DNA of 64,000 bases from assembly GCF_000385565.1 (NCBI RefSeq), contig NC_021169.1:1408571-1472570 (forward strand), read 5' to 3'. A program made the translations under genes and the position numbers. This DNA is from Archaeoglobus sulfaticallidus PM70-1. GTDB lineage: Archaea; Halobacteriota; Archaeoglobi; Archaeoglobales; Archaeoglobaceae. Numbering within the stretch: the first letter of the stretch is position 1; each line of letters begins with the position of its first letter. This document shows positions 45,999-48,222 of this stretch, piece after piece. The notes beneath the pieces are model-generated. The model saw only the letters and a list, made by a program, of their open reading frames with translations, searched no databases and was not told the origin of the DNA.

Positions 45999-46469
45999 AT
46001 GAAGCTCGTTCCGAAGAAGGTTTTTCTGGTCTCGGGTAAGGGATCTCACAGCGATGCGCTGGTGAGCTTTGAGCTTGCTTTGAGGGATGCGGGTATAGAG
46101 AAGTTCAATCTCGTCACAGTCAGCAGCATTTTGCCACCGAACTGCGAGATAGTTGATAAGGAGGAGGGGTTGAAGCACCTATCTCCTGGGGAGATAGTCT
46201 TCACAGTAATGGCGAGATACACGAGCAATCAAGCCGGAAAGAAGATCTTCGCAAGTATCGGGCTTGCTAGGCCAGAGAAGGGTCATGGATACCTAACAGA
46301 GTATTCTGGAGAATGGGATAAAAGCGTTGATGAAAAGCATGCGGAAAAGATGGCGGAACTGATGGTCGAGAGCATGGGCTCAAAGGCAACCTTTAAGAAA
46401 ACGGTATTTGAGGTTGCGGAAGTGAGGGAGTTCACAACAGTTGTCTCCGCAGCAGTTTTTGTTTTGTAA
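45999..46469 (+). CDS. pdaD: Pyruvoyl-dependent arginine decarboxylase
   Basis: 156 residues. The proenzyme self-cleaves at a Ser-Ser bond: LVTVSSILPPNCEIV places the site at Ser42/Ser43, with Ser43 becoming the pyruvoyl group. The sequence SGKGSHSDALVSFELALRDA and GEIVFTVMARYTSNQAGKKI match the family. It makes agmatine, the first step to polyamines, which connects it to the aminopropyltransferase at 3947. RBS GGAG lies 8 nt before the ATG. Confidence 0.95.
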   Translation: MKLVPKKVFLVSGKGSHSDALVSFELALRDAGIEKFNLVTVSSILPPNCEIVDKEEGLKHLSPGEIVFTVMARYTSNQAGKKIFASIGLARPEKGHGYLTEYSGEWDKSVDEKHAEKMAELMVESMGSKATFKKTVFEVAEVREFTTVVSAAVFVL

Positions 46470-46605: not shown

Positions 46606-48222
46606 ATGAGGAAAAAGATTGGGTTCTGGGAGGCTTTCAGCATAGGCGTTGGAGGGATGATCGGTGGCGGCATCTTTGCGGTTTTAGGTTTAAGCATTCA
46701 ATTGTCAAAAAGTGCCGCTCCTGTAGCCTTTCTTTTAGCTGGTTTGATAGCTTTGGCGACTGCCTACTCCTATGCCCGACTGTCGGTCAGGTTTCCAAGT
46801 GAGGGAGGGACTATAGAGTTCATTGTGAGAGCTTACGGAACGGGTCTGTTCTCCGGCACTCTCAATGTATTGTTGCTTGCAAGTTACATCGTCATGCTCT
46901 CCCTCTACGCCTACGCCTTCGGCAGCTACGGTGCAAACATGCTGGGCTTCATCAACCCAATCCTTGCAAAACATCTGCTGATAACTCTCGTAATTGTTCT
47001 GTTCACCGTCGTAAATGCCCTCGGTGCAGTCATCAGCGGAAAAACCGAGGATTTACTTGTAGTATTAAAGCTGGCAATTCTGCTAATCGTGGCCGGAGCT
47101 GGCATGGCTTTCGTGGACACAGCTAGACTTTCACCATCAAACTGGGCAGATCCCGTGAGCATTGTTGCAGGCGGGATGATAATATTTCTTGCTTATGAGG
47201 GGTTTGAGCTAATAGCAAATACAGGAAGCGATGTCGAAGACCCGTCGATACTCCCGAAAGCATTCTATGCTGCGGTTCTGCTGGTGGTAGTCGTTTATGT
47301 GATGGTGGCGGTGGTTACTGTCGGGAACCTGCCGTACGATATGATAATCAAGGCGAGGGACTACGCTTTAGCAGCCGCAGCGAAGCCATCGCTGGGCGAG
47401 GCGGGCTTCTGGCTCATAACCTTAGCTGCTCTGGCATCAACAAGTTCGGCAATAAATGCCACTCTCTACGGCACCGTAAGAGCAAGCTACATGGTAGCAA
47501 AGTATGGACAGCTTCCCGAAGCTGTTGAAAAACCCCTCTGGAAGCAGGCTTATGAAGGGCTGCTTATAATAAGTCTTCTATCCTTAATCTTTGCAAATAC
47601 TGCAAGCCTTGAGTTCATATCCACAGCCGGGAGCGGTGGATTTTTGCTTATCTTTCTCTTCGTGAACATCGCAGCGTTGAAGCTCCGTGATTGTGTTAAG
47701 CTAAATCCGGTAATTCCAGCAGTAGGAACAGTGTTAACTCTTGCAGCCCTTGTTGTACTCATTTATAGGATGGCAGAAACTGATGTGAGAAATCTGACGG
47801 TCTTTGTTTGCCTTATTGCAGCATCTTTTCTGATCGAGGCATCCTACAGAGCTATCACGAGCAGGAAGATAGAAGAGTATTTGGATGTAAGGCTAAGGAA
47901 AAGGGAGGAAAACCTGGAAAACTGGTATAGATGGATTGATGGAGTTATTTGCAGTATAGTTGAGACCTTTGAAGATGCAGAGGTGTATCTGGTCGGTAGC
48001 ATTGCGAGGGGTGACATCAAGAAAGCCAACGATGTTGATTTGCTTATCTTTACCAATAATCTTCCATCAAAAGATAGAGAGAAAGATATTGTGAGGAAAC
48101 TCAAACAGAAAGCTAAACTCACTCTGCAGCATTCAGTTGACATTCATTTTGCAAACAAGCAGAGAAAGGAAGAAACGCTTAGGGAGGCACAACATTACAA
48201 GCTTCTGAAACGATCCAAGTGA
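46606..48222 (+). CDS. APC-family amino-acid permease fused to a C-terminal nucleotidyltransferase domain
   Basis: 538 residues from the ATG at 46606; the frame extends 22 codons upstream, but the permease begins at MRKKIGFWEAFSIGVGGMIG. Residues ~1-430 are an amino acid-polyamine-organocation permease with ~12 transmembrane helices (GGMIGGGIFAVLGLSIQLSK is the TM1 substrate-binding glycine motif). Residues ~440-538 form a polymerase-beta-type nucleotidyltransferase: VYLVGSIARGDIKKANDVDL (GS ... DxD) with a third acid in HSVDIHFA. All three candidate catalytic aspartates are present. It would lie on the cytoplasmic face. Function of the fusion unknown. Confidence 0.85.
   Translation: MRKKIGFWEAFSIGVGGMIGGGIFAVLGLSIQLSKSAAPVAFLLAGLIALATAYSYARLSVRFPSEGGTIEFIVRAYGTGLFSGTLNVLLLASYIVMLSLYAYAFGSYGANMLGFINPILAKHLLITLVIVLFTVVNALGAVISGKTEDLLVVLKLAILLIVAGAGMAFVDTARLSPSNWADPVSIVAGGMIIFLAYEGFELIANTGSDVEDPSILPKAFYAAVLLVVVVYVMVAVVTVGNLPYDMIIKARDYALAAAAKPSLGEAGFWLITLAALASTSSAINATLYGTVRASYMVAKYGQLPEAVEKPLWKQAYEGLLIISLLSLIFANTASLEFISTAGSGGFLLIFLFVNIAALKLRDCVKLNPVIPAVGTVLTLAALVVLIYRMAETDVRNLTVFVCLIAASFLIEASYRAITSRKIEEYLDVRLRKREENLENWYRWIDGVICSIVETFEDAEVYLVGSIARGDIKKANDVDLLIFTNNLPSKDREKDIVRKLKQKAKLTLQHSVDIHFANKQRKEETLREAQHYKLLKRSK

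Follow-up and report, generated by a model that had tools for sequence, protein, structure and literature searches.

Does an amino-acid permease with a nucleotidyltransferase on its cytosolic end exist as a genuine single protein, and what could such a domain contribute to a transporter? The question is raised by a gene in the window, i.e., the whole stretch of 64,000 nucleotides of Archaeoglobus sulfaticallidus PM70-1 that was analysed. A single open frame of 538 codons, with an ATG start and a TGA stop, spans positions 46606–48222 of the (+) strand, and its start methionine is the same methionine that aligns in the orthologues. The encoded protein (538 aa) is an ApcT-like amino-acid permease fused to a C-terminal domain derived from a minimal nucleotidyltransferase (MNT), so that a 12-helix APC permease is followed by a conserved helix and then by an MNT domain with the motif GSX10DXD. 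The continuous frame claimed in the original prediction is borne out by the open frame itself and by Pfam matches to both parts (AA_permease_2 and NTP_transf_2), each of which exceeds the gathering cut-off. The concern that a frameshift had joined two genes in this assembly alone was rejected: 26 Archaeoglobaceae orthologues, about 57–84% identical, have the same architecture, which rules out both chance and a local frameshift. Permease and nucleotidyltransferase are each known families, and the fusion is claimed here as a variant, not as a first report; no prior description of a permease-MNT fusion was found among the open-access papers that were searched.

The permease part is matched by AA_permease_2 (PF13520) over residues 5–404 (46618–47817, +), with an E-value of 8e-32 and 111 bits against a cut-off of 27. 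An AlphaFold model of the full-length protein (pLDDT 84.7) shows a 12-TM APC fold whose transmembrane helices reach approximately residue 418, and the best structural match by Foldseek is ApcT (MJ0609; PDB 3gi9/3gia), with 34% identity over the whole length and a target TM-score of 0.89; bacterial CAT ranks behind it, and the NCBIfam model TIGR00909 is matched below its cut-off (167 vs 557 bits). Proton coupling in ApcT runs through Lys158, with which the TM5 lysine of the fused protein, Lys155 (47068–47070, +), aligns; this position is lysine in 93/93 aligned family members, from which it follows that the fused transporter is probably proton-coupled as well. However, ApcT stops after TM12, whereas the fused protein adds a conserved helix and a 95-residue domain of the nucleotidyltransferase type.

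The substrate, a putative amino acid, had originally been sought in the neighbourhood, in which pdaD is a real gene (45999–46469) directly upstream on the same strand; arginine, agmatine or polyamine transport was accordingly named as a possibility. A transporter of this kind, acting with the adjacent pyruvoyl-dependent arginine decarboxylase, is very unlikely, because pdaD adjacency is absent at all other fused loci examined, a T-rich gap of 136 bp with T-runs separates the two genes, and in fold and sequence the permease comes closest to ApcT, with AdiC at 18% identity and far below ApcT in the structure ranking. The arginine/agmatine antiporter model TIGR00905 likewise stays below its cut-off (32 vs 409 bits). 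An operon of pdaD and the fusion was rejected, since the adjacency is not conserved. Downstream of the fusion lie pcm and an argD-like gene, and among the fused loci examined no conserved gene neighbour was found beyond close relatives. Scans for sigma-70-type promoters and hairpin terminators returned nothing useful, as expected in an archaeon.

The tail occupies residues 440–534 (47923–48207, +), and the prediction that it is a nucleotidyltransferase has held up in both sequence and fold. NTP_transf_2 matches residues 453–522 with an E-value of 1.2e-10, overlapped by Polbeta as a weaker match (E 3e-7); the tail model reaches a pLDDT of 91.6 and a pTM of 0.81, and its first matches in the PDB are solved minimal nucleotidyltransferases, namely 1ylq (AF0614), 2rff, 8xeo/8xeh (Legionella MNT) and 6m6w (MntA). 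The NCBIfam model of the MntA antitoxin, NF047752, scores below its cut-off on the tail (21.7 vs 60 bits). The residues read V-G464-S465-I-A-R-G-D...D476-V-D478, an exact GSX10DXD, with Gly464-Ser465 at 47995–48000 (+) and Asp476-Val-Asp478 at 48031–48039 (+), followed by Asp512-Ile-His514 at 48139–48147 (+). Three carboxylates, D476, D478 and D512, are therefore present in the window protein, as predicted, and GSX10DXD is invariant across the 26 Archaeoglobaceae fusions (both its Gly-Ser pair and its two Asp in 26/26); the third Asp, on the other hand, fails to hold across the family, as it is His in 5/26 of the same fusions. In the 41 motif-intact copies, a class that includes a few with GG instead of GS, 21 have Asp and 20 have His at position 512, with at least 10 switches between the two on the permease tree. 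The closest stand-alone relatives mostly carry Asn or Glu at the equivalent position and retain the His that follows. In MntA, the third acid, D71, coordinates the second Mg (PMC7641770); it would correspond to position 512 of the fusion, and with His in half of the motif-intact copies, a classical two-metal transfer is doubtful there.

These residues bear directly on whether the archaeal tail is an active modifying enzyme, one that would transfer NMP to the transporter itself or to a cytosolic partner, in the way that MntA and Legionella MNT modify HEPN, and thereby switch transport or a signalling partner. Such activity is conceivable by analogy but doubtful on balance. It would fit the preservation of GSX10DXD in every Archaeoglobaceae fusion and throughout the 41 motif-intact copies (with GG in a few), as AMPylation by MntA and by Legionella MNT needs the G/S and D/D of the motif (PMC7641770, PMC11586414). 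It is at odds with the His that stands in for the third carboxylate in 20/41 of those copies and with the repeated D/H changes; moreover, bacteria keep the domain but have lost the motif, and neither HEPN nor any other conserved substrate gene was found near the fused loci examined. A candidate target is Tyr300 (47503–47505, +) in the predicted cytosolic TM8–TM9 loop, a weak lead from the family alignment: it is Tyr in 38/41 motif-intact fusions and mostly Glu, Asp or Lys in unfused relatives, a pattern that is confounded by shared ancestry, with 8 changes on the tree. The more specific version, in which the archaeal tail would be a protein-NMP transferase that switches its own permease (e.g., at Tyr300) as the supply of nucleotides changes, with the bacterial branch as a pseudo-enzyme regulator, is quite unlikely.

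The nearest stand-alone homologues of the tail are MNTs of about 110 aa with 32–36% identity, most of which directly adjoin a gene of ~115 aa; three such neighbours were confirmed as HEPN (PF05168). Descent of the tail from an MNT is supported by this kinship, and the tail shares fold, GSX10DXD and domain size with the HEPN-MNT type VII antitoxins (MntA, 6m6w/7bxo; Legionella MNT, 8xeo/8xeh) and with stand-alone AF0614 (1ylq). It differs from the HEPN-MNT antitoxins in being attached to a transporter, in lacking a HEPN partner, in its D/H third carboxylate and in the loss of the motif in bacteria. The earlier suggestion of a relic of a fused MNT antitoxin is thus upheld as to ancestry, while a dead relic is unlikely in view of the purifying selection described below. 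The tail might still act as a membrane-tethered antitoxin that neutralises a HEPN RNase encoded elsewhere, as its mostly HEPN-adjoined stand-alone homologues would allow, but this is very unlikely: with a profile built from the HEPN partners of related stand-alone MNTs, no HEPN was found in the window, nor up to 3 kb from any of 80 fused loci (the best 80 of 462 relatives), and the motif is gone from the bacterial copies. An orphan HEPN as the target of the tail was also sought in the host genome and not found, the three HEPN genes above the cut-off each lying beside its own MNT. Separately, at two loci (L071 and L074; G024:C7 and G147:C10) several MNT-like and HEPN-like genes are clustered within a few kb and adjoin genes that, judged by eye, are glycosyltransferase-like.

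How widely the fusion occurs was addressed by several surveys. Among 60 relatives searched, many were Archaeoglobaceae with the full-length fusion, and 26/55 Archaeoglobaceae genomes carry it, with tail-less relatives at about 50–56% identity in others. About half of the genomes in the order surveyed thus have the fusion. Confinement to Archaeoglobaceae was rejected: when 84,980 species genomes were scanned, giving 462 relatives, bearers turned up in other phyla, and the fusion extends far beyond the order. The best 80 of the 462 relatives are all fused, in open frames of about 480–578 aa, and come from archaea (Archaeoglobi, Desulfurococcales, Pyrodictiaceae, Acidilobaceae and Hydrothermarchaeota) as well as from WOR-3, Thermodesulfobacteriota/'Deltaproteobacteria', Aquificota, Desulfurobacteriaceae and Nitratiruptor; many bearers are metagenome bins, and some labels (e.g., Micrarchaeota) may be misbinned. 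The bearers include a named strain, Thermodesulfatator autotrophicus S606. Searches by phylum gave fusions in about 29/121 Aquificota, 7/250 Thermoproteota and 5/150 Campylobacterota, several of them on chromosome-size contigs, and in 1/148 of a Thermodesulfobacteriota sample. Many heat-loving archaea and bacteria are thus among the bearers. A long open frame in genome G455 was discarded as a fusion, being long only from stop to stop with a true ORF of 447 aa and no tail; a match on a Rhodococcus plasmid (50%) has an alignment that stops at residue 436.

The history of the fusion was read from trees of the permease portion only. With 41 rows, the fusions of Archaeoglobaceae cluster together as a single group (support 93/100); with 93 rows (SH-aLRT supports from a quick search), two changes suffice to account for the fused state, a gain on a branch with support 99 and a loss. 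The loss comprises five Campylobacterota proteins nested inside the fused group (L190–L194 in G955, G944, G926, G956 and G1002), and a stub of the linker is left in four of them (e.g., ...ILDEDLRKGI and ...FIDKNLQEDEE). Motif-intact copies come from archaea or take an archaeal-like place in the tree; GSX10DXD is lost in a bacterial clade of Thermodesulfobacteriota, Aquificota, Campylobacterota and two WOR-3 bins, with replacements such as DELARGER..ANKLH..KxS or GK..HIN. Among the fusions, the motif state changes twice, once in this bacterial clade and once in the lone row L128, the latter by inspection. The permease tree thus supports a history in which the tail was acquired once and later shed once, and in which the motif disappeared once, on entry into bacteria. 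Profile comparison shows the motif-less tails to be homologues of the archaeal ones (hhalign probability 99.7%, E 3e-25), and none of the six bacterial ones that were tested reaches the Pfam cut-off of NTP_transf_2; consequently, annotation largely misses the domain. Its persistence in bacteria without the motif speaks for uses beyond catalysis, and its loss in some Campylobacterota that keep the permease implies that it is not essential to transport.

Whether the domain is nonetheless a neutral passenger, a functionless leftover of the fusion that decays at differing speeds, depends on the constraint acting on it. The tail changes more quickly than the permease, the bacterial copies have lost the motif, some Campylobacterota have lost the tail, and the copy in genome G012 is eroded, all of which such a leftover would show; the passenger explanation is nevertheless unlikely. 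The dN/dS of the tail is 0.05–0.24 for archaeal pairs with measurable dS (NG86), usually above that of the permease and clearly below 1, and that of the motif-less bacterial tails is 0.10–0.18 where measurable, the values being rough because synonymous sites have reached saturation in many pairs. As judged from these codon comparisons, the tail is under purifying selection, the motif-less bacterial tails included. Furthermore, a full-length tail has been retained in dozens of species of several phyla, and the invariant positions are located in the pocket: throughout the 26 Archaeoglobaceae fusions, only W440, W443, G464, S465, A467, D476, D478 and H514 are invariant in the tail. The pocket is retained in these fusions while the remaining tail drifts, and this invariance suggests that nucleotide or metal binding matters there.

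Two unusual copies were noted in these comparisons. The eroded copy of G012 (L060; G012:C10:5408–6901) has a partly deleted tail with several short gaps and a shortened end, and keeps GSX10DXD. At L096 (G015:C1:93300–95400), an in-frame TGA replaces the Gly codon of its relatives (KYGQLPE) and a further TGA stands at the expected start, so that this fused gene is either a pseudogene or a sequencing error; its third-acid position is His.

Between the permease and the tail lies the linker helix behind TM12, residues 420–438 (RKIEEYLDVRLRKREENLE; 47863–47919, +), as delineated from the model and the alignments. Its residues D427, L430 and E434 are conserved in motif-intact and motif-less fusions alike, which suggests a mechanical role shared by the two classes. 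With the motif kept in one branch, lost with the fold retained in another and the tail cut off in a third, the family points to a regulatory role, and the persistence of the motif-less domain argues for a part that is regulatory rather than strictly catalytic. The reading preferred here, held with middling confidence, is that the tail serves as a regulatory module in the cytosol, attached to an ApcT-like transporter that is probably H+-coupled; the module would probably bind NTP-Mg in archaea and be a pseudo-enzyme in bacteria. An MNT domain akin to those in HEPN-MNT modules would have been added a single time, in a thermophilic archaeon, to the C-terminal cytosolic end of the transporter, which is an orphan in that no partner gene is conserved beside it. 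In the archaeal copies, the GSX10DXD pocket would, to judge from its motif, most likely bind NTP-Mg, and a nucleotide signal would pass to the transporter through the conserved post-TM12 helix, such that the nucleotide state may gate transport; in the bacterial copies, the module would have turned into a pseudo-enzyme that regulates or stabilises the permease with no nucleotide chemistry.

Few transporters have a domain derived from an enzyme built into them, and the move of an MNT from a HEPN-MNT-type module to an amino-acid pump would clearly count as domestication. The family forms a graded natural series, from motif-intact (D or H) through motif-less to tail-less with a linker stub, which allows a direct test of the role of the domain; should the archaeal tail be an active transferase, the bacterial branch would be a natural experiment in the passage from enzyme to pseudo-enzyme regulator. 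A precedent for such a module is found in APC permeases with C-terminal Usp domains (about 745 aa) in the same organisms, which similarly combine an APC permease with a cytosolic domain of a nucleotide-binding family; they differ in the domain itself and in belonging to a separate permease lineage at about 31% identity. In Archaeoglobaceae, such Usp-tailed permeases occur, for instance, at L087:5308–7545 (−) and L065:5272–7491 (+), and some of them adjoin the permease studied here.
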